From Candidatus Lindowiibacteriota bacterium (GTDB lineage: Bacteria; Lindowbacteria; 2-12-FULL-62-27): a stretch of DNA of 30,654 bases. Below are positions 8,923-29,582 of this stretch, piece by piece. Numbering within the stretch: the first letter of the stretch is position 1; the number at the start of each line of letters is the position of its first letter. The stretch spans positions 1-30,654 of the forward strand of contig JAHFCY010000005.1 in the NCBI GenBank assembly GCA_023249255.1. The letters are read 5' to 3'. The position numbers were made by a program, and so were the translations under genes. The notes under the pieces are model-generated. The model had not been told where the DNA came from. It made no database searches and worked only from the letters and a program-made list of their open reading frames with translations.

Positions 8923-9122
8923 GAGAGTTTCTCCCCTTGGTTTATCGCCTGAATTTCCATGCGCGGCATTGAATCAGGACGTGGACTGAATCGCAAGGAC
9001 GATTTCGGAGTACAACCTTTCCAGCGGAAAAAATCATGATAATGTGGGGGGAAGAACTAAACTTGGCAAAGTGGAGGACATGCGGGAATGCGACTGATCG
9101 GAAAGAAACTCGCGATCGCTGA

Positions 9123-13332: not shown

Positions 13333-13383
13333 TATCGGTCGTCAAACCACGATTCTACCAGGTGAAAACGACACGTGGGCCGG

Positions 13384-14901
13384 CTATTCCCACTCAATGC
13401 TGGCCGGCGGTTTGGTCGAAATGTCGTACAGGACGCGGTTGACGCCTTTGACTTTATTCAAAATCGCGTTTGCGATTTGCCGGAGGAGTGTGTGAGGCAG
13501 TTCGGCCCAGTCGGCGGTCATCGCATCGCGGCTCGTGACACACCGGATGGAGAGCGCATGCTCGTACGATCGCTCATCGCCCTTGATGCCGACAGTTTTG
13601 ACCGGCAGAAGCACACAGAGCGCCTGCCAAGTCTTGTCGTACCAGCCCGATTCTTTCAAGTGGCGAACCAGAATATCGTCGGCCTCGCGAAGAACGTCGA
13701 GTTTTTCTTTTGTGACGGCGCCGGGAATGCGGACTGCCAGGCCGGGACCGGGGAACGGATGGCGGTTTAAAATTTCGAGGGGAATGTTCAGCACGCGGCC
13801 GAGCGCACGGACTTCGTCCTTGAAGAGATCGGCCAGCGGCTCCATGACCTTTCCTTCGCGTTTCAGTTCAAGGATTTTGTCAACGCGGTTGTGATGGGTT
13901 TTGATGCGCGACGTGATATCAGACCCGCTCGTGGCGCTTTCGATCACGTCCGGGTAGAGCGTGCCCTGCGCGAGAAGCTCGATGTCACCCGCGGTTTCAT
14001 AAAAGACTTTCACAAAGAGGTCGCCGATGATCCGCCTCTTCTTCTCCGGATCTTCAACGCCCGCCAGGGCCGGAACAAATTTGTCCCCGGCTGGAACGGT
14101 CTCAATGGCGATGGCCATCTCGCGGAAATTTCGTGCGACTTCGACTGGCTCGTTTTTCCGAAGTAGCCCCGAATCGACAAAAATCGGACGCAGTCGGACG
14201 CCGCTCTCTTTGAGCAGGACAGCCAGGACGGTCGAGTCGACGCCTCCGGATACAGCGCAGATGACAGAACGGCCCCGGACTTCTTCGCGGATGGACTGGA
14301 TCAGTTCGTCTTTGTAGGACGCCATCGAAAAATCCGGCTGCCGGTTCATCAGCGACAGGAAATTTTTCAGAATGCGCGTGCCGTGCTCGGTGTGGCTGAC
14401 TTCAGGGTGGAATTGAATGCCGTAGAAGGACGGACTCCACTGGATCGCCACCGGATGGCCGGCCGGGTTTCGGGCGAGGACGGAACTTTGCGGCGGGCAC
14501 CCGGTCACGACGTCGGAATGGCTCATCCAGACGCGAAAAGTCGATCCGACACCGTCGAGGATGCGGTCAGACTGTTCGACACGGACGTCGGCAGGACCGT
14601 ACTCGCGACTGGCGCCCGACGAGACCTTGCCGCCCCATTTGACGTTCAGGATCTGCATGCCGTAGCAGATGCCGAGCACCGGCGCGTTGAGACTCTGAAG
14701 GAACTCGAAATCGACATCCGGCGCACCGGGTTCAGTCACACTGCGCGGCCCGCCGGACAGGATAACCGCGCCGACATTACCGATATTTCGAATGTCGGCC
14801 GGCGCGTACAAATGGGAATAATATCCGATCTCCCGGACCCGGCGGACGATCAACTGCGAATATTGGGAGCCGTAATCGATCACGGCCACCCGCGTTTTCA
14901 T
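13384..14901 (-). CDS. guaA: GMP synthase, glutamine-hydrolysing (505 aa)
   Basis: Converts XMP to GMP using ATP and glutamine. An N-terminal class I glutamine amidotransferase has catalytic C79 in LGICYGMQ and H165/E167 in QFHPEVSHT. The ATP-pyrophosphatase domain has PP-loop SGGVDST (218-224), and the C-terminal dimerisation domain ends IEWE, the usual GuaA terminus. The length is normal. It is preceded by a G-rich ribosome site (GGGGGG about 6 nt before ATG 14901) and by the 52-bp palindrome, 102 nt after guaB. It is the last biosynthetic gene of the run and performs the last step to GMP, whose base is the likely ligand of the riboswitch at the head of the operon. Confidence 0.97.
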   Translation of the reverse strand: MKTRVAVIDYGSQYSQLIVRRVREIGYYSHLYAPADIRNIGNVGAVILSGGPRSVTEPGAPDVDFEFLQSLNAPVLGICYGMQILNVKWGGKVSSGASREYGPADVRVEQSDRILDGVGSTFRVWMSHSDVVTGCPPQSSVLARNPAGHPVAIQWSPSFYGIQFHPEVSHTEHGTRILKNFLSLMNRQPDFSMASYKDELIQSIREEVRGRSVICAVSGGVDSTVLAVLLKESGVRLRPIFVDSGLLRKNEPVEVARNFREMAIAIETVPAGDKFVPALAGVEDPEKKRRIIGDLFVKVFYETAGDIELLAQGTLYPDVIESATSGSDITSRIKTHHNRVDKILELKREGKVMEPLADLFKDEVRALGRVLNIPLEILNRHPFPGPGLAVRIPGAVTKEKLDVLREADDILVRHLKESGWYDKTWQALCVLLPVKTVGIKGDERSYEHALSIRCVTSRDAMTADWAELPHTLLRQIANAILNKVKGVNRVLYDISTKPPASIEWE

Positions 14902-14918
14902 AGGGACCCCCCGTTTTC

Positions 14919-14970
14919 AAAGTGATATCATGATATCATGATATATATCACGATATCATGATATCACTTT
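14919..14970. repeat. 52-bp near-perfect palindrome of TGATATCA units between guaB and guaA
   Basis: The two 26-bp arms (14919-14944 and 14945-14970) are reverse complements with a single mismatch and no loop. The inside is made of 8-bp units that are themselves palindromes: tgatatca at 14923, 14931 and 14959, cgatatca at 14951, and a central tgatatatatca. The A/T-rich block stands out from the GC-rich surroundings. In the mRNA it would form a long hairpin just upstream of the guaA ribosome site; in DNA it could be an array of dimeric operator sites. No T-run follows. Confidence 0.92.
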
Positions 14971-15003
14971 GCCTTCCGAGTCATCCGAGGCGGCGGCTGT
15001 CTT

Positions 15004-16476
15004 CTACTCGCCATCCGCCGCGCCCGTCATCGGCGACACCGGCTCTTCGCTCACGACCACGTCATGCGTCTGGCTCTCCCGAAGACCACCCGGCGTGAGG
15101 CGCACGAATCGCGCGCGTTCACGGAGCGTCTGAAGATTTTTCGCGCCGATGTATCCCATGCCCGATCGCACGCCTCCCATGAGCTGGGCCACCGTCATGC
15201 CGAGACTTCCGCGATACGGCACGCGCGCCTCCACTCCTTCGGGGACAAGTTTGCCCGACGCGTTTTGGCCGTAACGGTCGCTCGATCCTTTTCTCATGGC
15301 CTTGATCGACCCCATTCCCCAGTATTCCTTGAACGGCTTGCCCTGCCAGATCACGGTGCTGCCCGGACTTTCCTCCGTTCCCGCAAAGAGCGAGCCGATC
15401 ATGACCGAATCGGCGCCGGCTGCCAGCGCTTTGAGAATATCGCCGGAGAATCGAATGCCACCGTCGGCGATGAGAGGCACACGTTTTTTCCGGCAGACGC
15501 GCGCCACGGTCTGAATCGCCGTAAACTGCGGAACTCCAACGCCGGACACGACTCGGGTCGTGCAGATCGATCCGGGACCCAGGCCAACCTTGACGGCCGA
15601 CGCACCGGCGCGGATGAGATCCAGCGCGCCCTGTTCAGTCACGACATTTCCGGCGACGACCGGAACATCATCGACTTTTTTTCGGATTTCCGTCAGGATC
15701 GTGACGACGCGCCGAGTGTGACCTGTTGCGGCGTCGATGAACAAGCAGTCGGCACCCGCCTCGGCAAGCGCCTGCGCCCGCGCCACAGCGTCATCACCAA
15801 CGCCGACGGCCGCGCCCGCACGAAGCCGGCCGTATTCATCCTTGCACGATTCCTGAAACATCATTCTCTTTTCAATATCCTTGCCGGTCATCATGCCCGT
15901 CAGTCGGCCGCGTTTGTCGACGAGCGGAAGTTTTTCAATGCGATGTTTGTAGAGGATGGATTTGGCGTCGGACAGGCTGGTGTTCGGCGGAGCCGTCACA
16001 AGCCGTTCGCGCGGGGTCATCACTTCCTTGACCTGTCTGCCATCCGGTTCGAGGAATCGGATGTCGCGGCGGGTGACCATGCCTTTGAGCACGCCATCAT
16101 CGTCAACGACCGGAAATCCCGAGATGCGTTTTTCGCGCATGATCTGATGAAGCTCGCGGATTGTAGTTTCCGGCCTGACCGTAATCGGTTTATCCACGAC
16201 TGTATGCTCCGAACGTTTTACGGTTTCGACCAGTTCGCATTGTCGGATCACCGCGCAATTCCGGTGAATCACACCGACGCCGCCTTCCCGGGCCAGCCCG
16301 ATCGCCAGTTTGTCCTCTGTCACGGTATCCATCGCCGCGGACAACACGGGAATTTTCATCGGCATGCCCCGCACCAAAAGCGTACCAAGATCGATCTCCG
16401 GCGGCAGAACGTCGCTCAGACACGGAACCAGCAGGACATCGTCAAAACTCAATCCCAGCGGAATTTCTTTCGACAT
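15004..16476 (-). CDS. guaB: IMP dehydrogenase (490 aa)
   Basis: Oxidises IMP to XMP with NAD+. N-terminal FDDVLLVP (11-18) and the catalytic loop GPGSICTTR with nucleophile C305; two CBS domains (about 92-205) lie inside the barrel and in the family sense ATP/GTP. Flap and active-site motifs are [23 protein letters not shown] and [17 protein letters not shown]. Length is normal. GAGGAGG (16485-16491) precedes ATG 16476. It follows pyrE after 27 nt and is separated from guaA by the palindrome. This is the first committed step to guanine nucleotides. Confidence 0.97.
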
Positions 16477-16503
16477 GACACACGCCTCCTCAATAAAACA
16501 GGA

Positions 16504-17079
16504 TCAGACTTTCTTGGTTCCCGGGCGATGCGCGGGGACTCCCTCGCGACAGAGCGGACAGTCCGCCGGGTCGTAGACCGGAAATTCACATGCGACGACC
16601 GATGCGATCGGGAGTTGGTTCCACGTCGATTTACCCGAACGGTTCACCACCGTGAACACCCCGACGATTTCACCGCCGTGTTCTTCGACCAGTGGGTTGA
16701 GTTCATCCAACGTTCCGCCCGTTGTGATCACATCCTCGACCATCAAAATTTTTTCGCCGGGCTGAATGGCGAAACTCCGTTTTAAGATCATCCGATTTTT
16801 TTCGTTGCGTTCGGCAAAAATCGAGCGGCATCCGACGTGCAAAGCGACCTGCTGACCGACAGGAATGCCGCCGACCGCCGCAGACAACACGACGGCGACA
16901 TTCCCCGCCCACGAATCAAGCGGCGACCTGATCAGATCCTGCAGAACCCGGGGATGCTGGGTAAGCATCGCCACCTGAAAATAATGGCCGCTGTGTTTAC
17001 CGCTGGCCAGGACGAAATGTCCGGTTTTCAGCGCGTCGTGTTCCTTCAGAACATCCAGAATTTCATCCACGGAACGCAT
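16504..17079 (-). CDS. pyrE: Orotate phosphoribosyltransferase (191 aa)
   Basis: Makes OMP from orotate and PRPP. The PRPP-binding motif is ILMVEDVITTGGT; the N-terminal FVLASGKHSGHYFQV holds the substrate loop. The C-terminus has a Cys pair in DPADCPLCREG, known from one PyrE subgroup and possibly structural. ATG 17079 gives MRSVDEILDV and a 17-nt overlap with the end of pyrF; a longer frame reaching 17130 adds a non-family arginine/serine-rich stretch and is rejected. It is followed by guaB after 27 nt. Confidence 0.93.
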   Translation of the reverse strand: MRSVDEILDVLKEHDALKTGHFVLASGKHSGHYFQVAMLTQHPRVLQDLIRSPLDSWAGNVAVVLSAAVGGIPVGQQVALHVGCRSIFAERNEKNRMILKRSFAIQPGEKILMVEDVITTGGTLDELNPLVEEHGGEIVGVFTVVNRSGKSTWNQLPIASVVACEFPVYDPADCPLCREGVPAHRPGTKKV

Positions 17080-17830
17080 CGTCGATTTTTTCCTTGAATG
17101 TTTTGGCGCGGCGGCGGAATCCCTCTGCACCCGAATCGTAGAGGAGACTTCGCGAAACGTTCACCACGATTGGCGCTCGGCGGGAGGCGAGAGAAAGCAG
17201 GCCCAACTCGCCCCCCTGTGCTCCAAGACCGGGGATCAGCAGGGGCACATCCGGGATCCGGCTGAACACCTCGTCCGACGCCTGTGTCAGACCCACAACC
17301 AGTCCGACCGTGGCTCCGTCCGGGCGAACCGTCGCTGTCTTGTCGACGACATCCTGAAACAGATATCGGTCATGATTTTTTTTAAGCTGAAAGTCCGATG
17401 CGCCCGGGTTTGACGTGACGGCCAGAACGTACACGCCCTTGTCGGCGTATCTGAAAAACGGCTCACAGGAATCGACACCTAGATACGGATTAAGCGTAAC
17501 CGCGTCCACGTTCCAATTTTCAAAATAAGCGCGGGCGTAATAGGTTTGGGTCTCCGGAATATCGCTACGTTTGGCGTCGAGAATGATCGGAACCGGTTTG
17601 GGAATGTGAATGAGAATTTTTTCGAGAATCTGATATCCGGCCGCGCCCATGGCTTCGAAATAGGCGATGTTCGGCTTGAAGGCCGCCGCTTCTTCCGCCA
17701 CGTCGTCCACAACGTGCCGGAGGAAATCGTAGACATCTCCGTCGATCAAATCCGGGCGGGGATCGAGTCCAACACACAGATGCGTTGACGCGGACGCAAT
17801 CCGATGCGCCAGCCGCTGCTCGAACGTCAC
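17063..17830 (-). CDS. pyrF: Orotidine 5'-phosphate decarboxylase (255 aa)
   Basis: Decarboxylates OMP to UMP. The catalytic Lys/Asp motif reads DAKRSDI (85-91, K87 and D90); most family members have glycine where S89 stands. CVGLDPRPDLI near the N-terminus and LIPGLGAQGGE near the phosphate site fit the longer, mycobacterial-type PyrF. The start is GTG 17830, which forms a GTGA overlap with the pyrD stop. The frame is open 123 codons further upstream, but that part is arginine-rich out-of-frame pyrD and not protein-like. Confidence 0.93.
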   Translation of the reverse strand: MTFEQRLAHRIASASTHLCVGLDPRPDLIDGDVYDFLRHVVDDVAEEAAAFKPNIAYFEAMGAAGYQILEKILIHIPKPVPIILDAKRSDIPETQTYYARAYFENWNVDAVTLNPYLGVDSCEPFFRYADKGVYVLAVTSNPGASDFQLKKNHDRYLFQDVVDKTATVRPDGATVGLVVGLTQASDEVFSRIPDVPLLIPGLGAQGGELGLLSLASRRAPIVVNVSRSLLYDSGAEGFRRRAKTFKEKIDDAFRG

Positions 17831-18654
17831 GGCCTGCGCATCCGTAGCGCCCTCCACTCCTGCAGAATCCGGCGAAGCGCGCCCGGATCGACATACTGAA
17901 TGCTCCCGACTTGCACGGCTTTTGCCCCGGCGCCTAAAAATTCCTCGACATCGCGGCCTGCCGTCACGCCGCCGGACGCCACAATCGGAATCCGAACGCG
18001 CAAGGACGTCTGATAGACGTAATACAATGCCATCGGCTTGACGGCCGGACCCGCAAGCCCGCCCTGCATCCGGTGTCCCTTCGGCGTGAACGCGATCGAG
18101 GGATACGTGTTGCTCACGGTCACGGCGTCGGCTCCGGCGTCTTCGCAGACCTGTGCGGCATCGATGCATGTATAAGGCGGAAGTTTTGCGCAAATCCACT
18201 TTCGAGTCAGCCCGCGTGCGGTTTTTACCATGCGGCGGACGAATACCGGGTCAACTGACGGCATCACCCGGCGCTGGCGGATGTTCGGACATGAGAGATT
18301 CAGTTCATATCCTGAAATTCGGCTCTCGGTTTCCATTTTGGACAATACCCGGGCCAGGTCCGCAGTCGACTCGGCATAGACGCTCACGATGAAAACCGTC
18401 GGAATGCGGATCCGGCGGATGAGATTCAAAAATCCGTCAACGCCGGGATTTTCGAGGCCGACGTAGTTGACCGAACCGGACGGCGTTTCGACGATTCGAG
18501 GCGGCGGATTGCCGGCCCGCGGAAGGGGTGTAATGGTTTTACAGATGAACGCGCCCGCGTGGCGGTAGCGCTCCGGATATTTGTCACCCAGACCAAATGT
18601 CCCACTCGCCACGATAAGCGGATTTATAAGCGCGAGTCCACCCAACTTGATCAT
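17827..18654 (-). CDS. pyrD: Dihydroorotate dehydrogenase, class 1B catalytic subunit (275 aa)
   Basis: An FMN enzyme that oxidises dihydroorotate to orotate. NPLIVASGTFG (11-21) starts the barrel; the catalytic base is cysteine C122 in ELNLSCPN, as in class 1 cytosolic enzymes (class 2 has serine). The FMN-phosphate part is PIVASGGV and AVQVGSI. With PyrK encoded directly upstream (ATGA overlap at 18651-18654) it forms the NAD-linked PyrDK heterotetramer. Slightly shorter than the common 300 aa. The downstream pyrF overlaps by GTGA. Confidence 0.95.
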   Translation of the reverse strand: MIKLGGLALINPLIVASGTFGLGDKYPERYRHAGAFICKTITPLPRAGNPPPRIVETPSGSVNYVGLENPGVDGFLNLIRRIRIPTVFIVSVYAESTADLARVLSKMETESRISGYELNLSCPNIRQRRVMPSVDPVFVRRMVKTARGLTRKWICAKLPPYTCIDAAQVCEDAGADAVTVSNTYPSIAFTPKGHRMQGGLAGPAVKPMALYYVYQTSLRVRIPIVASGGVTAGRDVEEFLGAGAKAVQVGSIQYVDPGALRRILQEWRALRMRRP

Positions 18655-19409
18655 AGTGAAATCATCTCTTCTCGAAAGACCGGTCCTTCGTCACAGGCCC
18701 GATAGTATCCCTGGCCGGTTCGCTTTTTCACGGGACAGGTGTAGCAGATTCCGAATCCGCATCCCATCATTTCCTCAAGCGAAACTTCGATCATCGGAAT
18801 CCGGCCACGAACCAGATCCGCCGTCGCCCGGATCATGCCGGTCGGGCCGCATACAAAGCAGTTTCGAAATCGTTCGAGCGCCATTTTCTTCAGGCGGTTT
18901 GTAACGACGCCGCTTCGCTCCTCCACAACAACCTCGGTCTTCACTCCGAGACTTTTCAAAACCGCCGGCGCCGTTTCCCGCCGGAATCTGACGCCATACA
19001 CAAACGTGACCGAAACGCCGCGCGATTTCAAGGCGCGGACCAGATAATGGACGCCGCCCAATCCCGTGCCCCCGGCCACGACAAGCGCGGGGCCGACTGC
19101 GGTATCGTCAATCGAAAAAGCGTTGCCGAACGGACCCAGAATCGAGACGGAGTCACCGGGCCGCCATTCGCTCATTCTTGCGGTTCCCGGCCCGATGACT
19201 TTGTAGAGAATATCCATCGCGCGGCCCCGGATATCCATCACGCTGAAGGGCCGGCGCAAAAACGGCGTTGTCTCGCCTGGCGTTCGGCAGAGAATTTGAA
19301 CAAACTGCCCGGGAAAAATCGTCAGACGCTCGCGGACGCCGAGCGTCAGAACATGGTAAGAATCTGAAACCTTCTTATTTTGAAGAACACGTGACGCGAT
19401 TTCGTCCAT
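18651..19409 (-). CDS. pyrK: Dihydroorotate dehydrogenase electron transfer subunit (252 aa)
   Basis: An FNR-fold iron-sulfur flavoprotein that passes electrons from PyrD to NAD+. FAD motif RRPFSV (52-57), nucleotide motif VVAGGTGLGGV (111-120), and [2Fe-2S] cysteines C217, C222, C225 and C239 in MMGCGFGICYTCP and YYRACDEGP, in the normal PyrK spacing. ATG 19409 with AGGA about 8 nt upstream is preferred over an in-frame TTG at 19430; it overlaps the end of pyrC by 35 nt. The stop overlaps the pyrD start by ATGA. Confidence 0.94.
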   Translation of the reverse strand: MDEIASRVLQNKKVSDSYHVLTLGVRERLTIFPGQFVQILCRTPGETTPFLRRPFSVMDIRGRAMDILYKVIGPGTARMSEWRPGDSVSILGPFGNAFSIDDTAVGPALVVAGGTGLGGVHYLVRALKSRGVSVTFVYGVRFRRETAPAVLKSLGVKTEVVVEERSGVVTNRLKKMALERFRNCFVCGPTGMIRATADLVRGRIPMIEVSLEEMMGCGFGICYTCPVKKRTGQGYYRACDEGPVFREEMISL

Positions 19410-20697
19410 CCTTCGTCCTATCCAGAACAATCTGGCCGCTCACGGTGACCAACTCGACACTTCCATCGAGATCCTTTCCGAGAAACGGCGTGTTGCAACT
19501 TTTTGATTTCAAAAACGCGCGATCAACGCGGGTTTTCTTCTGCGGATCAAAAACCAGGAAGTCGGCGCGATTGCCACGGCGAATCGAGACCGGATCAAGT
19601 CCCAGGAGTTTGCGGGGATTGGAGGAAAAAGCCGACGCGAGCCGGCCCCAGGACAGCCGCTCGGTCTTGATCAGATGCGTATAGAGAGACAGAAGAGCCG
19701 TTTCGAGCCCGATGATGCCAAACGGCGCGGAACAATAATCCTCATTTTTTTCGTATGTTGTATGAGGCGCGTGGTCGGTCGCGATGCAGTCAATCACGCC
19801 CTCCTTGAGGCCCTCCAGGAGGCGCGCGCGATCCTCATCGCGGCGGAGCGGCGGATTCATTTTGAGATTCGTGTTGTAGTCGACGATATCCTTGTCGCAA
19901 AAAATCAGATGGTGGGGGGTGACTTCACAACTGACCGGCAGCCCCTGCTGTTTAAACCGCCGGATGATCTCGATGCTGCCTGATGCCGAGACGTGATGAA
20001 TATGAATCCGCGCCCGCGTCCACTGCGCAATCCGCAAATCCCGGTCGATCGCGATTTCCTCGCTTGCGGACGGAATGCCGGGCAGGCCCAGTTTGTAGGA
20101 AACGGCGCCCTCATTGACCACCCCGCCCTCGGACAATTCCCGAACTTCGGCGTGCGATCCGATAAGGAGTTTGAAATTCCGCGAGTATTCCATGGCGCGG
20201 CGCAAGAGCCGGGCATCGGAAACCGGATCTCCGTCGTCTGTAATCATCACCGCGCCCTTTTCGACCATGTCGCCGATCTCCGCGAGTTCCCTGCCCGCGC
20301 GGCCGCGTGAGACGCATCCCGCCGTGTAAACCGGAATGCGCGATCTCTCCCGCGCGAGATTCAGGACGAACCGGACCATGCCGCCGGTGTCGATGGCCGG
20401 CTCTGTGTTGGGCATCGCGAGAATTCCAGTGATGCCGCCGTTGACGGCCGCCTCGGTTCCCGTCTCAAGGGTTTCCTTGTCTTCCCGGCCCGGTTCGCGA
20501 AGATGCACGTGCATGTCGAACAAACCCGGGACCAGAAACTTCTCGTTACAATCGATGACGGGTGTCGCCGCATCAACTTCGATGTGCGGGTCGACACCTG
20601 CGATCCGGCCGTTCTCCACCAGAACATCCCGAAGTTCGGGCGCGCGGGCATCCTCCGTCACGACCCAGCCGCGCTGAAACAGAACCCGGCCCATCAC
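19375..20697 (-). CDS. pyrC: Dihydroorotase, class I (440 aa)
   Basis: An amidohydrolase closing carbamoyl-aspartate to dihydroorotate. Zinc ligands: DMHVHLREPG (H63, H65), the TDDGDP aspartate near 154, SHAE (H182), HIHHVSA (H234/H235) and catalytic D308 in IATDHAPH. Class I enzymes carry a bridging Asp, as here, rather than a carboxylated lysine, and often pair with PyrB. The start is GTG 20697 (GTGA with the pyrB stop), or the next codon ATG 20694. Full length. Confidence 0.95.
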   Translation of the reverse strand: MMGRVLFQRGWVVTEDARAPELRDVLVENGRIAGVDPHIEVDAATPVIDCNEKFLVPGLFDMHVHLREPGREDKETLETGTEAAVNGGITGILAMPNTEPAIDTGGMVRFVLNLARERSRIPVYTAGCVSRGRAGRELAEIGDMVEKGAVMITDDGDPVSDARLLRRAMEYSRNFKLLIGSHAEVRELSEGGVVNEGAVSYKLGLPGIPSASEEIAIDRDLRIAQWTRARIHIHHVSASGSIEIIRRFKQQGLPVSCEVTPHHLIFCDKDIVDYNTNLKMNPPLRRDEDRARLLEGLKEGVIDCIATDHAPHTTYEKNEDYCSAPFGIIGLETALLSLYTHLIKTERLSWGRLASAFSSNPRKLLGLDPVSIRRGNRADFLVFDPQKKTRVDRAFLKSKSCNTPFLGKDLDGSVELVTVSGQIVLDRTKDGRNRVTCSSK

Positions 20698-21668
20698 GAC
20701 GCCTGCGCGACGGCCGGCGTTTTTTCGTCAACCGCCAGATGCAAAAGATACAAGACTGACATTCGCACCGCGATGCCGTTTTCGACCTGCCGATTGATGA
20801 GACACCGGTCATAGTCCATCACTTCGTCGATCAATTCCACACCGCGGTTAACCGGCCCCGGATGCATGATGTAGATGCCTTCATCCGAAATCTGCCGGAA
20901 CCGCTCGCGCGTGATACCGAAGACACTGTGATACTCGCGCATGCTCGGAAAAAAATTGGCTTTCTGACGCTCGAGTTGAAGACGCAGGAGATAAATCACG
21001 TCGGGTTTCCACCGCATTGCCTCATCGAACTGGTCAAAGACCGTCAGGTGCGGCGGGACGGACGAGGGAATCAGAGTCCCCGCGCCGAAGACCGCCGTTT
21101 TCATGCCGAGGTAGTGCAGACACCGGCTGGTCGAACGGGCGACGCGCGAGTGAAGGATGTCGCCGACTATGAGTATTTTTTTGGCGCGGAGGTCGTCAAA
21201 AATTTCATCCAGCGTGGACGCGTCAAGGAGCGCCTGGGTCGGGTGGGCATGGAAGCCGTCGCCGGCGTTGATGACCGAGGCCGACGTTTGCCGGGCGATG
21301 AGGTTCGGCACGCCCGAGACGGAGTGACGGACGACAATGAAGTCGACATTCATCGATTGAAGGGTCGCGATCGTGTCGAGGATCGACTCGCCTTTCACAA
21401 CGCTTGAGGTCGACACCGCAAAATTGGCGACGTCGGCGGACAACCGTTTTGCGGCGATTTCAAAGGACGTTCGCGTGCGCGTCGACGGTTCATAGAACAA
21501 CAGCAACACCGTCTTCCCCTTGAGCGGCGGGACTTTTTTGACCGACCGCGTGAACAGGTCCTTGAATGGTTTCGCCGTGTCCAGAATCAGGCGGATTTCG
21601 TCCGAGGACAACGACTCGATGTCGAGAAGATCTTTTCTGGAAAATTTCATTTTCGGCGTTTTTTTCAC
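20694..21668 (-). CDS. pyrB: Aspartate carbamoyltransferase catalytic chain (324 aa)
   Basis: Condenses carbamoyl phosphate with aspartate, the first committed pyrimidine step. Carbamoyl-phosphate motifs STRTRTSFE (62-70) and HPTQALLDA (142-150); the aspartate-domain loop is IMHPGPVNRGVE. No pyrI regulatory subunit is encoded, so control probably falls to PyrR and transcription. GTG 21668 forms a GTGA overlap with the pyrR stop. Start-near repeats of Lys (MKKTPKMKFSRKDLL) are ordinary. pyrC follows with a 4-nt overlap. Confidence 0.96.
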   Translation of the reverse strand: MKKTPKMKFSRKDLLDIESLSSDEIRLILDTAKPFKDLFTRSVKKVPPLKGKTVLLLFYEPSTRTRTSFEIAAKRLSADVANFAVSTSSVVKGESILDTIATLQSMNVDFIVVRHSVSGVPNLIARQTSASVINAGDGFHAHPTQALLDASTLDEIFDDLRAKKILIVGDILHSRVARSTSRCLHYLGMKTAVFGAGTLIPSSVPPHLTVFDQFDEAMRWKPDVIYLLRLQLERQKANFFPSMREYHSVFGITRERFRQISDEGIYIMHPGPVNRGVELIDEVMDYDRCLINRQVENGIAVRMSVLYLLHLAVDEKTPAVAQAS

Positions 21669-22234
21669 CGCGGGGAATCCTCCCGCAAAAGATAAACCGC
21701 GTCCTCGCCGTCCCCTTCGTGAAATCGCACACGGATGTATTCGTTCGATCTGGTTTCGACGAATTTTCCCGTGTAATTCGGGCAGATCGGAAGTTCCCGG
21801 TTGCCGCGGTCAACCAGCACCGCCAGTTCGATCCTGGCCGGCCGGCCGTAATCGATCAGCACGTCGATCGCAGCCCGAATGGTCCGGCCCGTAAAGAGCA
21901 CGTCGTCGAACAAAACGATGAGCGAGCCTTCGACGTCAAACGGCAGTTCGGTTCCGCGCACGGACGGGATGGTTCCGAGATTATCGAGGTCATCCCGGTA
22001 GAGCGTGATATCAATCGTGCCGCGCGACACTGTTTTGTTTTTTTGCGAGACCGCCTCATACACGCGATCGGCAAGAACAACGCCGCGCTCGTGGATACCG
22101 ACGAACGCCATCTGCCGGCCGTTATGTTTTTCCAGAATTTCAAGCCCGATCCTCTGAACGACGTGATCCATTTCTTCGGCGCCGAGTAATTTGGTCTGCG
22201 TCAGATCTTTTTCGCTCACGGCGCGGCGACTCAT
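21665..22234 (-). CDS. pyrR: PyrR: pyrimidine operon attenuation protein / uracil phosphoribosyltransferase (189 aa)
   Basis: PRPP-binding motif VLFDDVLFTGRT (107-118) in a type I PRTase fold, and the PyrR-specific VDRGNRELPICPNYTGK (141-157). In Gram-positive bacteria PyrR binds UMP and then a stem-loop in pyr mRNA to favour termination, and has weak UPRTase activity. Here it opens the pyrimidine half and overlaps purD by ATGA, so there is no leader between them for a classic PyrR attenuator. Its RNA target would have to be inside coding sequence, at another locus, or lost. Confidence 0.93.
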   Translation of the reverse strand: MSRRAVSEKDLTQTKLLGAEEMDHVVQRIGLEILEKHNGRQMAFVGIHERGVVLADRVYEAVSQKNKTVSRGTIDITLYRDDLDNLGTIPSVRGTELPFDVEGSLIVLFDDVLFTGRTIRAAIDVLIDYGRPARIELAVLVDRGNRELPICPNYTGKFVETRSNEYIRVRFHEGDGEDAVYLLREDSPR

Positions 22235-23520
22235 TCCCGTCCGGCGACGGCCCCGGCAAGGCGCGACTCGCGAACGGTATCAAAATGAAGACGACCGATG
22301 TCCCGGCGAACCTGCATGCCGTCAAATCGGATTTTATCAACTTCGCGATACACGCGCGTAACCGCCGCTTCGCGCGTCACAGCAGACGCAACCACCGACA
22401 AAACGCGGCCGCCATTGATCTCCCACGTTCCGTCCGAATTTCGCCGCGTGCCGGAATGATAGATCCGCGCACCGTCAACCCGGTCCAAGCCCGCAATCAG
22501 CCCTCCGGCGCCAGACCTCACCGGATAATTTCGAGAAGCCAGAACGACAGTCACAGCCCATTTCCGCTCAACGCCCAGAAGACGCGGGTTCAACTTCCCC
22601 TGCGCCGCGGCAGACAGATACTCGGCCGCATCGCCGCCCATCAGTTCGAAAACGGACTGCGCCTCAGGATCGCCGAACCGGCAATTGAATTCAAGAACTT
22701 TCGGCCCGGCGGCGGTCAGCATCAATCCGAAATACAAAAATCCCCGGTATGGCAGGCAGTCCTTTTCAAGCCCGTTCATCACAGGCCGGATGATCGAGGT
22801 TTCGATGTCATCCGCAATTGTTGCCGGAATCAAATCGGGCGAGGCGACCGCTCCCATCCCGCCCGTGTTGGGCCCGCTGTCTCCATCTCGAAGACGTTTG
22901 TAATCCCGCGCCGGGACGAACATCTGATATTGCCCGTCGCTGACGGCGCAGATAACCGATATCTCTTTCCCCTCCAGACACTCCTCGATCAACACATTCG
23001 GATTTTTTCCGAACCGGGTTTCGTCGAAGACGCTCCGGATGAAATCCTCGACATCTGTTTCCGTCGCGCACACCGCAACGCCCTTGCCGGCCGCCAGGCC
23101 GTCGTATTTCAAAACACACGGAAGTGCCGATGATGCTCGCCGGACTCGATCGGCCGTGGACGCGACTGAAAATCGCGCCGTTGGCACGCCGTGCCGGCTC
23201 ATGAACTCCTTGGCGAATATTTTGCTGGTCTCAAGCCTGGCGGAGGATCGGTCCGGACCCCAGACGGGAATGCCCGCGGCGCGGCACGCATCCGCCAAAC
23301 CTTCCTCGAGATATTTTTCCTCGCCGACGACGCAGAGATCAATCTGTTCCTGACGGAAAACGCGAAGAATCTCCGAGGGCGGCACACCAATTCGGCGGGC
23401 CACATCCAACATTCCGTCACTGCCGGGGCAGACGAGAACATCCGGGCGGGACGGCGACTCATGAAACGCGCGCGCCATCACGTGTTCCCGCGCGCCCTGG
23501 CCGACGACGGCGATTTTCAT
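22231..23520 (-). CDS. purD: Phosphoribosylamine-glycine ligase (429 aa)
   Basis: An ATP-grasp ligase joining glycine to phosphoribosylamine to give GAR. N-terminal VGQGAREH (6-13, the usual GxGGREH), ATP-grasp part VLKYDGLAAGKGVAV, glycine-site NTGGMGA and metal-binding LEFNCRFGDPEAQ. Length is normal. ATG 23520 shares one base with the purF stop (TGATG) and the stop overlaps pyrR by ATGA, so this gene is the joint between the purine and pyrimidine halves. Being made directly after PurF fits hand-over of unstable phosphoribosylamine. Confidence 0.96.
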   Translation of the reverse strand: MKIAVVGQGAREHVMARAFHESPSRPDVLVCPGSDGMLDVARRIGVPPSEILRVFRQEQIDLCVVGEEKYLEEGLADACRAAGIPVWGPDRSSARLETSKIFAKEFMSRHGVPTARFSVASTADRVRRASSALPCVLKYDGLAAGKGVAVCATETDVEDFIRSVFDETRFGKNPNVLIEECLEGKEISVICAVSDGQYQMFVPARDYKRLRDGDSGPNTGGMGAVASPDLIPATIADDIETSIIRPVMNGLEKDCLPYRGFLYFGLMLTAAGPKVLEFNCRFGDPEAQSVFELMGGDAAEYLSAAAQGKLNPRLLGVERKWAVTVVLASRNYPVRSGAGGLIAGLDRVDGARIYHSGTRRNSDGTWEINGGRVLSVVASAVTREAAVTRVYREVDKIRFDGMQVRRDIGRLHFDTVRESRLAGAVAGRE

Positions 23521-24941
23521 CAGACCGGCTCAGGCTCAAGCGGCGCAGACTCGGGAGCGGCCGCCGTTTTCGAAATGCAATTGCTTTGCCCGTTCACCGG
23601 CACCGGATATTTCCCCGTAAAACACGCCATGCACGTTTGATCGCCAACGACGCGTTTCAGCGCGTCAACCGACAGGTAACCGATGGAATCGACGCCAAGA
23701 TATCCGGCCAACTGATCCGCCGGAGCCTTGTTGGCGAGAAAATCGTCCGGGTCGGGCATGTCGATTCCGAAGAAACACGGATGGCGGACCATCGGAGACG
23801 CGATCCGAAGATGGACCTGTGCCGCGCCGTGGTCACGAAACATTTTGACGATCTGCCGCGACGTCGTGCCGCGAACAATCGAATCGTCCACAACCACGAC
23901 GCGCTTGCCCAACACCGAATCGGAAATGATGTTGATTTTTTTCCGGACGTTGAGATCACGCATCGACTGGTACGGCGCGATAAACGTGCGGCCGGTGTAG
24001 TGGCTTCGGACGAGCACGATGTCGAGCGGAATACCTGAGGCGATCGAGTAGCCGAGCGACGCGGAGTTCGAAGAATCAGGAATGCCGGTGACGATGTCAG
24101 CGTCGACCGGATGTTCGCGAGCCAGCTCCTCGCCAAGTTTGATTCGATAGCGGTGGATGGCCTGATTTTTAAACTGGCTGTCCGGCCTGGAAAAATAGAT
24201 CGTCTCGAACGAGCACATGCGCTCAACGGCCGGCACGGGCAGTTGAAACCGCCGAAGCCCTTTCGGTCCGACAAAATATCCTTCGCCCGGCGACACTTCC
24301 GCGACGCACTCGGCATTCAAAATATCGAAGGCGCATGTTTCGGACGCGAAAAAGATCGATCCATCCTTGCGTCCGAGAAACAACGGCCGAAATCCGAACG
24401 GATCGCGCACGGCCGCGACCCCGTCATTGAATAGAAAGACAAGCGAATACGCGCCCTCGACGCCCCGCAGACCCTCGCATATTTTTTCAACGGGATCGTC
24501 CGACCGGACCCGCACGATTTTGTGCAGGATGACTTCGGAATCGCTCGTGGTGGTGAACACCGATCCGTCGGATTCGAGGCCTTCCTTGAGATCAAGGGCG
24601 TTGACGATGTTGCCATTGTGGGCCATGGCGATGATCTGGCCGCGGTGCGTTGCGACCAGAGGCTGAATGTCCTTCTCGGCACAGCTTCCGGAGGTCGAAT
24701 AGCGGACGTGCCCGATGCCGAACGTTCCGTCGAGCTGATGCAGAAGTTTCTCCGAAAAGACGTTCGTGACCAGGCCGATGTCTTTATGGAGCGCGTAGTC
24801 GCCGAGACCGCGGCTCACGACGATGCCGGCGCTCTCCTGGCCGCGGTGTTGCTGTGCGTAGAGCCCGAGATAAATGTCCTTTGACGTCGTCCGGCCGTTG
24901 TACGCCGCAAACAGGCCGCATTTTTCTTTGAGGTCCATCAC
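23520..24941 (-). CDS. purF: Amidophosphoribosyltransferase, Fe-S type (473 aa)
   Basis: Makes phosphoribosylamine from PRPP and glutamine, the first purine step. C8 (KEKCGLFAAY) is the N-terminal nucleophile after removal of a short propeptide. PRPP loop VVVVDDSIVRGTTSR is at 348-362. Four cysteines, C243 (RMCSFE), C389 (RHPCFF), C437 and C440 (QTCMAC), match the [4Fe-4S] ligands of Bacillus-type PurF, which makes the enzyme oxygen-sensitive. GTG 24941 overlaps purQ by GTGA (ATG 24938 is the alternative). The last 20 residues are a Pro/Ala/Glu tail. Confidence 0.96.
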   Translation of the reverse strand: MMDLKEKCGLFAAYNGRTTSKDIYLGLYAQQHRGQESAGIVVSRGLGDYALHKDIGLVTNVFSEKLLHQLDGTFGIGHVRYSTSGSCAEKDIQPLVATHRGQIIAMAHNGNIVNALDLKEGLESDGSVFTTTSDSEVILHKIVRVRSDDPVEKICEGLRGVEGAYSLVFLFNDGVAAVRDPFGFRPLFLGRKDGSIFFASETCAFDILNAECVAEVSPGEGYFVGPKGLRRFQLPVPAVERMCSFETIYFSRPDSQFKNQAIHRYRIKLGEELAREHPVDADIVTGIPDSSNSASLGYSIASGIPLDIVLVRSHYTGRTFIAPYQSMRDLNVRKKINIISDSVLGKRVVVVDDSIVRGTTSRQIVKMFRDHGAAQVHLRIASPMVRHPCFFGIDMPDPDDFLANKAPADQLAGYLGVDSIGYLSVDALKRVVGDQTCMACFTGKYPVPVNGQSNCISKTAAAPESAPLEPEPV

Positions 24942-25708
24942 CGGTAGAGCGCCCCGATCTCTTCTTTGATTTGCCGGGCCGAATGGCCCGTCTGCGTCAC
25001 CGCTTCATAAATCGATTTGAAAAAGTAATACCCCCAGCCCCAGGGCGAATCGATGTTCAGATCGCCGTCGTAATAATCTTCGCGATATAAAACCCGTTCC
25101 GGATGCGGCATGAGCCCGATCACGCGGCCGGTTTCATCCTGAAGCGCGGCGATCGATTCCTCGGATCCGTTCACGGCGTCCTTGTAGACAAGCGGAACGA
25201 GCCCCCGTTCAACGTAGCGTGCCGCCAGGCCCGGCCTTGAGACAAAACGCCCTTCGCCGTGGGCGATCGGCAGTTCAAATTCGGGCGGCAGGAGCGTGAG
25301 ATAGGGACTGTTCGTTTTCATTGTTTTCAGCGTGACCCACCGGCACAAAAATTGACGGCCGACGTTTTCGACCAGGCTCCCCGTCGGCAGAATTCCCAGC
25401 CGCGAAAGAATCTGAAATCCATTGCAGATTCCGAGGACATATCCGCCGTCCACGATAAATTCGGACAGCGTATGGCCGAGTTTTCGCTCGATCTCCAACT
25501 GAGCGAAGCGGCCGGCTGAGATGTAGTCGCCATAACTGAATCCTCCGGGCAGAACGACCAGCCGCGCCAGAAGGACGTGATCGGCCGTCAGAGCGGCAAA
25601 CGGCACAATTTCGGGATGGAAGCCGACAACGGACAGAGCCCGTGCCGTCTCTTCCTCGCAGTCGGTTCCCGGAAATTTCAGAAGTAACGCTGCAGGCCGT
25701 TTTTCCAT
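24938..25708 (-). CDS. purQ: FGAM synthase glutaminase subunit (256 aa)
   Basis: A class I glutamine amidotransferase supplying ammonia to PurL. Nucleophile C95 in LGICNGFQ, and H202/E204 in MPHPE. N-terminal LLLKFPGTDCEEET and LPGGFSYGDYISAG are typical PurQ. About 25 aa longer than Bacillus PurQ, through the segment around NVGRQFLCRWVTLKT, seen in other lineages. ATG 25708 overlaps the end of purL by 31 nt; GTGA links it to purF. It acts with PurS and PurL, whose genes lie just upstream. Confidence 0.95.
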   Translation of the reverse strand: MEKRPAALLLKFPGTDCEEETARALSVVGFHPEIVPFAALTADHVLLARLVVLPGGFSYGDYISAGRFAQLEIERKLGHTLSEFIVDGGYVLGICNGFQILSRLGILPTGSLVENVGRQFLCRWVTLKTMKTNSPYLTLLPPEFELPIAHGEGRFVSRPGLAARYVERGLVPLVYKDAVNGSEESIAALQDETGRVIGLMPHPERVLYREDYYDGDLNIDSPWGWGYYFFKSIYEAVTQTGHSARQIKEEIGALYR

Positions 25709-28086
25709 GGTAATTTCAATTCCTTGAGAGGTTCGTTCAGAATGACTTCCTTTGCGGCGCGAACGACCAGATTCGAATGGTGGCCAATCGTGCGGCCGAT
25801 GATTGAAAAGGGCAGGCCGTCAAAACAGCGGGCGATGCCGCCAAGATGTTCCACATCGGACTCGAACAGAATCCGGCTGTTGGATTCCGAAAACAGGATG
25901 TCGACCGAAGACAGCGCAGGATCGCAGGAAACGTTGTGAAGGTCGATCTCGACGCCGCCGCCGGAAGCGAAGGCCATTTCGGCCAGCGCGACGGCCAGAC
26001 CCCCATCGGACAGGTCGTGCGCTGATCGGACCCAGCCTTCCCGTACACACCGATAAAAACAGCGATAAAGTTCCAGCGCCCGATCGGGATCGAGACCGGG
26101 CACGACACCGCCGGTTTCGCCCAGCACCCGCTCATACACACCCGCTCCGCGCTCACTGTGCGTAGTCCCCAGGAGACACACCATGCTGTTGGCGCGGCGA
26201 AACGCGGTTGTCGTCAGATGTCTCTTCTCCTCAACCACGCCCAGCGCGCTGACGAGCAGAGTCACGGGAATGGAAACCGTGCGGCCGTCTGTGGATTCAT
26301 AACAATTGTAGAATGAGTCTTTGCCCGAAATAAACGGCGCCTTGAAAATTTGCGCGGCCGCCGACATGCCCCGCACGCATTCGACCAGCGCGCCAAGCTC
26401 CTCCGGATCGTCGGGATTGCCCATGCAGAAATTGTCGAGCAGGGCGATGAGGTCGGGATTCGCTCCCGCGACAACCACCTGCCGGATGGCCTCATCGACG
26501 CACGATTGTCCCATGCGATACGGATCGAGAACGCCGTACGACGGCGAAAGCGCGACGCCGATCGCAAGACTCTTGCCGGATCCATCCACGCGGATGCACG
26601 TGCCGTCGGCGGGATTATCGCCATTTAAGCCGCCCAGCGGTTTGATCACGGTGTTGCCCTGAACTTCATGATCGTACTGCCGGATCACCGGCTCACGCGA
26701 CGCCACGTTCACGTCCGACAGGATCGTCCGAAGCGCCGCGCGAAGATCGGTCGGTGGAACCAAAATTGAGGCCGCGGCGGCACGCGGTCGATATTCCGAC
26801 CGGAGCGTCCGGCGCGGAGCTGAATGAAGAAATTCGCATTCCAAGTCGCACACCTTTATATCCTGATGGAACACTTCGAGCGATCCAGTATCGGTTGTCT
26901 CGCCGATCACGGTACACTCGGTGTCGTACATCTCCGCCAGATTCCGCAACGCGTCGAGGTGTTCGTCCCGGACGCCGAGAACCATGCGCTCCTGGCTTTC
27001 CGACAGAAAAATTTCCCAGCATGCGAGATTCTCCTCCTTAAGCGGCACGCGGTCGAGATAAACACGGCCGCCTGTTTCAGAAACCATTTCGCCGGCGGCG
27101 CTGGAAAGTCCGCCCGCGCCGCAGTCGGTGATGAAATCAATGAGACCGCGCTCACGCGCCTTCAATACGCAATCCATCAGCTTCTTTTCCTCAATCGGAT
27201 TGCCGATCTGGACCGCCCGGCGGTCATCAGTCGGACTTTCCGACGTGAGTGACGCGGACGAAAACGTCGCGCCGTGTAAACCGTCCCGGCCCGTTCGGCC
27301 GCCAAGCAGGACGATGTTCAACTCCGGCCTGACTTCTTTCAAAATTTCGTCGACCGGCAGAACTCCGGCTGTTCCACAAAATACGAGTGGGTTCAGGGCA
27401 TACCCGGAGTCGAACACAATTGCGCCGGCGATCGTTGGAATGCCCATGCGATTTCCGTAATCGCGCACGCCGCGTACCACACCCCTCAGAACGCCCAGCG
27501 GATGGATGCGGTCGGCCGGAATGGATTCGCGCGAGGCGGCCGGCATCCCGACGCAAAAAGCGTCAATCGACGCAACCGGTTTGGCGCCCTTGCCGGCGCC
27601 CAGCACATCGCGGATGACGCCGCCCAATCCGGTGTTGGCGCCGCCGTACGGTTCGATGGCCGAAGGGTGATTATGAGTTTCAACTTTCAGACAGGCGGCA
27701 AGTCGCCCGTTCAGATTGATGAATCCGGCATTATCGCGAAACGCGCTCAACACGAAATCAGGTTTGTCGCGATTGATTTCTTCGGTGACGTTCCGAATGA
27801 AAGTTTCAAAAAGTCCGTCAATGGGTGTAACATCGCGGTTGCTGCGGTGGACGATCCGCGCGTTGAATATCCGGTGCTTGCAGTGCTCGCTCCACGTCTG
27901 CGCGATCGTTTCGAGCTCTACGCAGGTTGGATTTCGTCCGGTCGATTTGAAATAAGACTTGATTTCCAGGAGGTCCGAGATACCCAGAGACAGTTTTCGC
28001 GAACGGCTGAGAGATTCCAAGTCTGCTTCGGCCATATCGAGAATCGGAATGGTCTCGTAAGGCGCGGCGAGCACGGACTCAGGCAT
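25678..28086 (-). CDS. purL: FGAM synthase large subunit, small PurL type (802 aa)
   Basis: Uses ATP and ammonia to turn FGAR into FGAM. The N-terminal catalytic helix is QTWSEHCKHRIF (63-74 from ATG 28086); the nucleotide and substrate loops KVETHNHPSAIEPYGGA and GGRTGRDGLHGATF and the repeated second half (SGKDSFYN, LSDGGLAVALAEM) are present. It lacks the fused glutaminase of large PurL, so it needs PurQ and PurS. ATG 28086 is preferred; a GTG at 28098 adds four residues. The start region overlaps the purS-like gene and sits next to a GC-rich palindrome. Confidence 0.95.
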   Translation of the reverse strand: MPESVLAAPYETIPILDMAEADLESLSRSRKLSLGISDLLEIKSYFKSTGRNPTCVELETIAQTWSEHCKHRIFNARIVHRSNRDVTPIDGLFETFIRNVTEEINRDKPDFVLSAFRDNAGFINLNGRLAACLKVETHNHPSAIEPYGGANTGLGGVIRDVLGAGKGAKPVASIDAFCVGMPAASRESIPADRIHPLGVLRGVVRGVRDYGNRMGIPTIAGAIVFDSGYALNPLVFCGTAGVLPVDEILKEVRPELNIVLLGGRTGRDGLHGATFSSASLTSESPTDDRRAVQIGNPIEEKKLMDCVLKARERGLIDFITDCGAGGLSSAAGEMVSETGGRVYLDRVPLKEENLACWEIFLSESQERMVLGVRDEHLDALRNLAEMYDTECTVIGETTDTGSLEVFHQDIKVCDLECEFLHSAPRRTLRSEYRPRAAAASILVPPTDLRAALRTILSDVNVASREPVIRQYDHEVQGNTVIKPLGGLNGDNPADGTCIRVDGSGKSLAIGVALSPSYGVLDPYRMGQSCVDEAIRQVVVAGANPDLIALLDNFCMGNPDDPEELGALVECVRGMSAAAQIFKAPFISGKDSFYNCYESTDGRTVSIPVTLLVSALGVVEEKRHLTTTAFRRANSMVCLLGTTHSERGAGVYERVLGETGGVVPGLDPDRALELYRCFYRCVREGWVRSAHDLSDGGLAVALAEMAFASGGGVEIDLHNVSCDPALSSVDILFSESNSRILFESDVEHLGGIARCFDGLPFSIIGRTIGHHSNLVVRAAKEVILNEPLKELKLPWKNGLQRYF

Positions 28087-28570
28087 CGGACCGCCCACCT
28101 GCCCTGCCTGCCGGCAGGCACGGCGGCAGGCAGATACTCCAGTCCTGAATCACCGGATTCACCAGATCGCCGACAATCCGACGGATGTCAGCCTCCTCAC
28201 AGGGATGCTGAATATAATACCGCTGAATGATGGCCAGATCGTGGATTTCCAGGTTGGCCGGCCTCGCCCCGTTAGCGTAGCGGAGGATGTATTCCTTCTC
28301 CAAGTCGAGCACGCCGGGTTTCAAAAACACGTCAAGCGCCGCTGTGCCCTCGGCGGCTGTTGGTCGGCCATCCTCCATGATTTCCTCGACAATCTCATCC
28401 GTCAGAACGCCGCGAACAAAATGCCGAAGCCCCTCCGACGATCCCGAATAGTCGATGTCGTAGACGCGCGTTCGGCGGTAGAGAGGCGCACTGTCGAGAG
28501 GGCTGTAGACCAGTTCGTTCGCGCTCACAAAATTCATCAGACGATTGACGATCTCAAACCGAGAGCGCAT
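28079..28570 (-). CDS. purS: PurS-like FGAM synthase component, extended (163 aa)
   Basis: It lies between purC and purL, where purS is expected, but is twice the usual 80 aa. Residues 79-145 resemble PurS: ALDVFLKPGVLDLEKEYI, a strand around LEIHDLAIIQRYYI, and a final helix ending VGDLVNPVIQDW. Residues 35-66 (RVYDIDYS ... GVLTDEIVEE) look like the second half of another PurS unit, so this may be one and a half repeats or a two-repeat protein with a worn first unit. PurS bridges PurL and PurQ. ATG 28570 gives a 17-nt overlap with purC; upstream open frame is out-of-frame purC. The last 17 residues come from the palindromic repeat. Similarity is by eye and moderate. Confidence 0.6.
   Translation of the reverse strand: MRSRFEIVNRLMNFVSANELVYSPLDSAPLYRRTRVYDIDYSGSSEGLRHFVRGVLTDEIVEEIMEDGRPTAAEGTAALDVFLKPGVLDLEKEYILRYANGARPANLEIHDLAIIQRYYIQHPCEEADIRRIVGDLVNPVIQDWSICLPPCLPAGRAGGRSDA
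28105..28133. repeat. GC-rich palindromic repeat at the purS-purL junction
   Basis: tgcctgccggcaggca (28105-28120) is a perfect 16-bp palindrome, followed by a second ggcaggcag arm (28125-28133) that can also pair with ctgcctgcc. On the minus strand it is read through by the purS-like gene as CLPPCLPAGRAGG, an out-of-character C-terminal tail. Such CTGCC/GGCAG repeats that add CLPAG-type tails recur in genes of candidate phyla (from memory). Confidence 0.7.
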
Positions 28571-29270
28571 GACTGACCCGTCCCAGCACATCGCTGTAAC
28601 TTTCCATGACTTCCCCAAGGTCTCTCCGGAATCGATCTTTGTCCAGCTTTCGGCCTGTTCGAATGTCCCACAGGCGGCACGTGTCGGGCGTGATTTCGTC
28701 CGCCAGAATGATTCGCGACCGGTCGGAATGAAGGCGGCCGAATTCGACTTTGAAATCGACAAGGCGGATTCCGACTTTTTCGAAAAATTCGCCCAAAAAT
28801 CCGTTGATCCGCATCGCCATGTCTCGAATGACGGAAACTTCTCCATCGGTCGCCAGGTTCAACTCTCGAAGGTGCTCCGTCGTGATCAACGGATCGTTGA
28901 GTTCGTCCTTCTTGTAATAGAATTCGACCATCGGCGCCGACAGAGGTGTTCCTTCAGGCCGGCCAATCCGGCCCGCCAAACTTCCCGCCACCCAGTTTCG
29001 CACGACGACCTCAACCGGAATGATCTCCACGCGCCGGACGATAATCCGGATCTCGTCGACATCCCGGACGAAATGACTTGGAATGCCGCGTTCCTCCAGC
29101 ATGCGGTACAACAGACACGTCAACTGTTTGTTGATCGCGCCTTTGTTCTGAAATTGCGTCTTCTTCTTGCCGTTGAACGCCGTCGCGTCGTCCTTGAACT
29201 CCATGAGGACTTCGTCAGGACAGTTCGTCCGGTACAACTTCTTCGCTTTGCCTTCATAGAGAAGTTCCAT
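28554..29270 (-). CDS. purC: SAICAR synthase (238 aa)
   Basis: Joins CAIR and aspartate using ATP. MELLYEGKAKKLYRT at the start, FKDDATAFNGKKK (25-37), VEVVVRNWVAGSLAGR and LVDFKVEFGR are all PurC signatures; ILADEITPDTCRLWD closes the active site. Length is normal. ATG 29270 is the first gene after the riboswitch leader, with only a weak ribosome site (GGGGTGA about 12 nt upstream), so translation may depend on the leader fold. It overlaps the purS-like gene by 17 nt. Confidence 0.96.
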   Translation of the reverse strand: MELLYEGKAKKLYRTNCPDEVLMEFKDDATAFNGKKKTQFQNKGAINKQLTCLLYRMLEERGIPSHFVRDVDEIRIIVRRVEIIPVEVVVRNWVAGSLAGRIGRPEGTPLSAPMVEFYYKKDELNDPLITTEHLRELNLATDGEVSVIRDMAMRINGFLGEFFEKVGIRLVDFKVEFGRLHSDRSRIILADEITPDTCRLWDIRTGRKLDKDRFRRDLGEVMESYSDVLGRVSHALSV

Positions 29271-29440
29271 TTTTCCGATTCACCCCACCGCAAATTCGAC
29301 TCTACAAGGTTGGTATCGAAACGGAAGTAGACCACGAGGTTTATTTTCCGGACAGCCCCCACGGCCGCCGAAAAACGACAGAGAGAAATCCCGCCCCGGC
29401 CGGTGAATGAACTCCAGCCGTCCCAGAGCGCTCTCTTTTT
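29271..29440 (-). promoter_or_regulatory. Leader between riboswitch and purC, probable expression platform
   Basis: About 170 nt without a gene. Right after the aptamer a run AAAGAGAG can pair with CTCTCT about 50 nt further, enclosing a 7-bp hairpin CGGCTGG-10-CCGGCCG, and GTCGTTTTTC follows (T-run at plus 29371-29375). This could be a terminator with part of its stem competing with P1 of the aptamer. A further 100 nt precede purC. The fold is my reading, not computed. Confidence 0.4.
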
Positions 29441-29510
29441 CCCCGTAGTCAGGAGGTTTACGGCCCCCTGGTAGAAACTCCCGGACCCATTACCAGGATT
29501 ATACGAGTCG
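29441..29510 (-). ncRNA. Purine riboswitch aptamer, guanine type
   Basis: Conserved core in order on the minus strand: CTCG-TATAAT (J1/2, plus 29498-29503), P2 CCTGG/CCGGG with loop TAATGGGT, J2/3 GTTTCTACC, P3 CAGG/CCTG with loop GCCGTAAAC, and J3/1 GACTACG (plus 29444-29450) closing P1 with CGGG. Loops can form the GG-CC kissing contact. The discriminating base in GACTA is C, which pairs with guanine or hypoxanthine; adenine switches have T. It sits between promoter and purC, so guanine should repress the operon. Confidence 0.9.
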
Positions 29511-29525
29511 AGACACTGAACGCCG

Positions 29526-29554
29526 ATTGTCGGCCAGAAATCAGGCCGTGTCAA
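29526..29554 (-). promoter_or_regulatory. Sigma70-type promoter of the nucleotide operon
   Basis: TTGACA (plus 29549-29554) is a perfect -35 box; 17 bp further GACAAT (29526-29531) matches four of six -10 bases. Transcription would start near 29519, about 10 nt before P1 of the riboswitch. Confidence 0.7.
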
Positions 29555-29582
29555 GATCAACCCAAAATTGTTTCCTGCCTCC

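Follow-up and report, generated by a model that had tools for sequence, protein, structure and literature searches.

A guanine-class riboswitch aptamer ahead of combined pur, pyr and gua genes in Lindowbacteria and directly before pyrR in some Verrucomicrobiota

A riboswitch aptamer of the guanine class is located in the leader of a 16-kb gene cluster of Candidatus Lindowiibacteriota (GCA_023249255.1, contig JAHFCY010000005.1), and it probably sets the expression of the pur, pyr and gua genes of this operon together. The window, i.e. the whole stretch of DNA that was analyzed, comprises 30,654 nucleotides. The leader aptamer would sense guanine while the leader is being transcribed. With abundant guanine the three-way junction would be locked and the downstream leader would take its OFF form, whereas with scarce guanine a downstream sequence would capture the 3' strand of P1 and the operon would be expressed; switching would take place by transcription termination or by translation. 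One purine signal would then act on the synthesis of IMP (pur), the synthesis of UMP (pyrR, B, C, K, D, F, E) and the branch from IMP to GMP (guaB, guaA). The OFF direction would be the one generally expected of biosynthetic operons that guanine controls. The leader contains the following elements:

29526..29554, minus strand: promoter-like TTGACA-17-GACAAT, between nrdJ and the aptamer (consensus scan, 10/12)
29426..29526, minus strand: purine (guanine-class) aptamer (Rfam RF00167, fold and covariation)
29509-29502/29447-29440 (P1), 29498-29492/29485-29479 (P2) and 29470-29464/29456-29450 (P3), minus strand: aptamer helices
29501 (U22), 29477 (U47), 29473 (U51) and 29448 (C74), minus strand: aptamer pocket positions
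29371..29436, minus strand: terminator-like imperfect hairpin AGAGAGCGCUCUGG...CUCUCU with a 6-nt bulge, then 4 nt and U5 (fold)
29330..29339, minus strand: candidate anti-P1 strand CCUCGUGGUC, complementary to J3/1 and the P1 3' strand GACUACGGGG (fold and duplex calculation)

The aptamer was identified by searching the whole window with cmscan. The Rfam Purine family RF00167 matched at 29526..29426 on the minus strand with 67.1 bits (E 6.5e-10, gathering score 37); the match spans model positions 1-102 without truncation and is the only one in the window that reaches its gathering score. It is also the only purine riboswitch found in this genome. A sequence-only reading had claimed a full conserved aptamer core and had named a search with this family as the check, and both the significant score and the intact core bear it out. 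The interval given there, 29441-29554, does contain the promoter and the aptamer core, but the element lies on the minus strand and its leader extends to purC at 29270. Our own covariance model R1, which was built with the window sequence included, scored the window aptamer at 82.3 bits, and the first 93 nt folded alone form the expected three-way junction. Two alignments were analyzed for covariation: A4 with 15 purine aptamers from eight genomes, window included, and A5 with nine aptamers from Lindowbacteria and Verrucomicrobiota. Standard pairs occupy 90.9% of the pair cells in A4 (covariation score 0.802, compared with 0.287 in shuffles), and 93.9% of the pair cells are paired in A5 (0.415, compared with 0.258 +/- 0.027). 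Neither score was reached by any of the 500 shuffles or by any slid control, and the three-way junction of P1, P2 and P3 is thus backed by compensatory changes. The L2 loop has six bases in all nine A5 aptamers, one fewer than the seven of the Rfam consensus; a DNA-pattern scan of the genome contigs for short-L2 aptamers gave no match. In the window L2 reads AAUGGG and L3 reads CCGUAAA, and the GG of L2 and the CC of L3 are invariant in A5, matching the predicted L2-L3 kissing loops. P2 is closed by one U-U mismatch.

The pocket was compared with the published rules for the ligand classes of this fold. C74 is the guanine-type residue, C51 (58 in class I) marks the 2'-deoxyguanosine classes, and xanthine-II aptamers carry G51 plus insertions in J2/3 and J3/1 (PMC8872408, PMC9295807). 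The window aptamer harbors U22, U51 and C74 of the guanine-class pocket and lacks junction insertions; in A5, U22, U47 and C74 are invariant and U51 is present in eight of nine sequences. Because the pocket U22/U47/U51/C74 fits the class rules, the window RNA is, by its sequence, an ordinary guanine-class member, and it probably senses guanine and also hypoxanthine. The guanine-type C of the sequence-only reading corresponds to C74. With the guanine-I class (RF00167) the window aptamer shares the three-way junction, the four pocket residues and the GG of L2 facing the CC of L3; it differs in its six-base instead of seven-base L2, in host phyla outside the usual range and in the presence of pyr genes in the operon. 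One aptamer departs from this pattern: in the pyrR leader L048 (9178-9277) U51 is replaced by G and the U at the top of P1 (U75) by G, without junction insertions. It has either decayed or changed its specificity; G51 is characteristic of xanthine-II.

The promoter-like TTGACA-17-GACAAT ends at the first modelled base of the aptamer and ranks first among the sigma-70-type matches on the minus strand from 13000 to 30000; it corresponds to the TTGACA promoter that had been proposed ahead of the aptamer. As sigma-70-type matches are as frequent in shuffled sequence (7 compared with 6.4 +/- 2.8), the argument for this promoter is its position. Downstream of the aptamer, the segment 29339-29330 is suggestive of an anti-P1 strand, with its complementarity equalled by 30 of 500 shuffles. 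Complements of the P1 3' strand also occur downstream in the G001 nrdJ leader and in the L040 group, where 2 to 115 of 500 shuffles do as well. For the imperfect hairpin and its U5, a putative terminator, a scan also gave a site at 29395-29367. In predicted folds of increasing length, the aptamer trails the optimum by no more than 1 kcal/mol in transcripts of up to about 174 nt, beyond which other folds win by up to 15.9 kcal/mol; these energies would fit a co-transcriptional decision. The predicted accessibility of the ribosome site shifts little, from 0.53 in the free to 0.34 in the bound form. The clearest terminator among the leaders compared is that of the G726 purC leader (L115 1384-1430), which ends with a textbook hairpin and U6 right before the ATG.

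The genes behind this leader, all on the minus strand, are:

28554..29270, minus strand: purC, first gene of the operon (Pfam SAICAR_synt, E 4.8e-80)
28079..28534, minus strand: 151-aa ORF at the purS position (conserved in relatives; Pfam: no match)
25678..28098, minus strand: purL (Pfam AIRS/AIRS_C/FGAR-AT_linker)
24938..25708, minus strand: purQ (Pfam GATase_5)
23520..24941, minus strand: purF (Pfam GATase_7 and Pribosyltran)
22231..23520, minus strand: purD (Pfam GARS_A/N/C)
21665..22234, minus strand: pyrR (NCBIfam PyrR NF003549, 194 bits, cut-off 138)
20694..21668, minus strand: pyrB (Pfam OTCace_N/OTCace)
19375..20697, minus strand: pyrC (Pfam Amidohydro_1 and DHOase)
18651..19430, minus strand: pyrK, dihydroorotate dehydrogenase electron transfer subunit (NCBIfam best NF000798, below cut-off)
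17827..18654, minus strand: pyrD, class 1B type (NCBIfam PRK07259, 233 bits, below cut-off 269)
17063..17830, minus strand: pyrF (NCBIfam TIGR02127, above cut-off)
16504..17130, minus strand: pyrE (NCBIfam TIGR01367, above cut-off)
15004..16476, minus strand: guaB (NCBIfam TIGR01302, above cut-off)
13384..14901, minus strand: guaA (NCBIfam NF000848, above cut-off)

The gene order from purC to pyrE and the lack of carAB here agree with the sequence-only reading, which had placed the whole pyr set except carAB downstream of the aptamer; guaB and guaA, which it did not mention, also belong to the cluster. ORFs of similar size (about 150 aa) lie between purC and purL in L017, L031 and L115, and the product of 28079-28534 is perhaps a divergent PurS-like protein. 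All junctions from purQ through pyrE overlap, those of purD/pyrR, pyrR/pyrB and pyrB/pyrC by 4 bp, and gaps of 27 bp and 102 bp separate pyrE from guaB and guaB from guaA. A transcript that starts at the aptamer would run on through the pyr and gua genes. A separate promoter for pyrR and the genes behind it, the point on which the earlier reading could have failed, was not seen: the scan for sigma-70-type consensus promoters on the minus strand found none from purC to pyrR. Between guaB and guaA lies a near-perfect AT-rich palindrome of about 55 bp, tgatatcatgatat... (14916-14974), at which animal and plant microRNA families of Rfam appeared below their gathering scores; these matches were rejected as caused by the AT-rich palindrome. 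Downstream of guaA, at 12442-13332, a TfoX N-terminal domain is fused to a DNA-3-methyladenine glycosylase I (Pfam), and a type III restriction-like helicase gene (ResIII, 1601-4582) and a phage-type integrase gene (6313-7569) lie near the far end of the window.

Within the phylum, three genomes were compared, that of the window (G000), G001 and G002. G001, Candidatus Lindowbacteria RIFCSPLOWO2_12_FULL_62_27 (contig MFPR01000012.1), represents a second genus of Lindowbacteria, in which nrdJ and then the genes purC to guaA stand in the order of the window, with proteins 56-81% identical; a purE-like ORF, read from the sequence, is inserted between purD and pyrR. G001 harbors two purine riboswitches, one before purC and one before nrdJ, which encodes a B12-dependent ribonucleotide reductase. 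The nrdJ aptamer (L017 18689-18590) is likewise of the guanine class. In the window genome nrdJ is located upstream of the aptamer, and its leader reaches the end of the contig at 32970 (L019 2905-2971, contig C357). The bases at the contig end, gcgcgaNNtctttcacttgtNgtccNtcc, match the G001 nrdJ leader, including the segment that is complementary to P1 in G001; therefore a second riboswitch probably lies before nrdJ just beyond the contig end. G002 yielded only distant matches (28% for purC, none for purL) and thus neither supports nor contradicts this arrangement.

Outside the phylum, relatives of PyrB were scanned with 10-kb flanks. Linkage of purD, pyrR and pyrB is common in Verrucomicrobiota, and some loci show the full pur-pyr-gua order. 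When 78 sources totalling 1.19 Mb (76 PyrB loci plus the window and L019) were searched with a covariance model, seven purine aptamers were detected, every one before purC or pyrR, and the Rfam model confirmed these at 38.9-67.2 bits. They comprise those of the window and G001, one in Kiritimatiellae (L031), which stands before purC and heads a pur-pyr-gua cluster, and four directly before pyrR (L040, L042, L044 and L048). In the latter the riboswitch is followed by pyrR-pyrB-pyrC-(pyrF)-guaB-guaA, a cluster without pur genes; each of these four genomes has no other purine riboswitch and carries purL on another contig. The four pur-less clusters indicate that the purine-pyrimidine link is no accident of a long operon. 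The cross-pathway link proposed by the sequence-only reading is supported by these pyrR placements and by the riboswitch-headed pur-pyr-gua clusters in the second Lindowbacteria genus and in Kiritimatiellae, while guanine binding and repression are what we infer. In L040, a pyrD gene (dihydroorotate dehydrogenase, 8080-9171) runs divergently to the cluster of riboswitch and pyrR. For most Verrucomicrobiota in which purD, pyrR and pyrB are linked, the DNA searched contained no riboswitch, and purine riboswitches are otherwise rare in this phylum (1 of 387 genomes phylum-wide, 4 of 213 in one order and 2 of 288 in one class, the sets overlapping); all six distinct Verrucomicrobiota genomes with such a riboswitch have it on purC or pyrR. 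In the PyrB tree the two Lindowbacteria sequences neighbor a clade of Verrucomicrobiota, and the five loci of Verrucomicrobiota with a riboswitch belong to a single group of seven. The other two members, L033 and L034, have no detected aptamer; their contigs start within purD or purL. It is likely, though unproven, that aptamer and cluster arose together long ago and that losses followed elsewhere.

The riboswitch might instead govern mainly the proximal pur genes, with pyr and gua carried along or served by an internal promoter under PyrR. A pyrR gene is indeed present, its product is in other bacteria usually the regulator of pyr genes, and internal promoters are frequent in long operons, where our scan covered the sigma-70-type consensus only. 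However, purD and pyrR overlap with no promoter match between them, the Rfam PyrR leader family has no match in 13000-30654 even at E up to 1, and the four Verrucomicrobiota genomes place the aptamer directly before pyrR, which together make this arrangement unlikely. We regard it as decidedly improbable that the purine fold binds something other than guanine (2'-deoxyguanosine, xanthine or a precursor of nucleotides, for example), although this would explain pyrimidine and ribonucleotide reductase targets. The unusual targets recall the 2'-deoxyguanosine-I switch of Mesoplasma florum (PMC8872408), as G001 nrdJ likewise has a purine-fold aptamer before a ribonucleotide reductase gene, and both the shortened L2 and the U51G change of L048 point the same way. 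The window aptamer and both G001 aptamers nevertheless have the guanine pocket without junction insertion, and since they carry U51, not the C51 of the Mesoplasma switch, guanine is their expected ligand. There is very little to commend a degenerate or non-functional relic: the U-U mismatch closing P2 and the imperfect expression platform would fit one, but the score of 67 bits, the intact core, the compensatory changes in all three helices and the conservation across genera and phyla contradict it.

A leader riboswitch acting on pur, pyr and gua together remains the preferred explanation, and a single purine signal would probably slow both purine and pyrimidine synthesis. Control of pyrimidine synthesis by purines is known from proteins and allostery. 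In E. coli, PurR lowers pyrimidine synthesis on a purine signal as a repressor protein on DNA, whereas in the window the effector would be a cis-acting RNA aptamer. The purine regulon of the B. subtilis type likewise has a guanine aptamer before the pur operon, and there also on transporters; its pyr genes form a separate operon attenuated by PyrR, whereas the window has pur, pyr and gua in one cluster behind one aptamer. Reports of guanine riboswitches come mainly from Firmicutes, plus one or two lineages of Proteobacteria (PMC3766115, PMC2258182). Our literature search, mostly of freely accessible papers, returned no case of such a riboswitch placed on pyr genes, also when it was directed at Verrucomicrobia. 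As far as this search shows, the new part is the wiring to pyrimidine genes and, in a single genome, to ribonucleotide reductase.

Several distant lineages, most of them uncultured, thus have a known RNA sensor placed on pyrimidine genes, some in clusters devoid of pur genes. The known targets of the guanine class thereby extend to pyr genes and to a ribonucleotide reductase that depends on B12. A single leader and a single ligand suffice for a direct test of whether purine and pyrimidine pools are balanced at the RNA level. On a wider reading, which we hold only tentatively and judge slightly short of evenly balanced, guanine would serve Lindowbacteria as an RNA-level signal for deoxynucleotides (nrdJ), IMP, UMP and GMP, and in some Verrucomicrobiota the riboswitch would be a dedicated pyrimidine-plus-GMP regulator that matches pyrimidine output to the purine pool.
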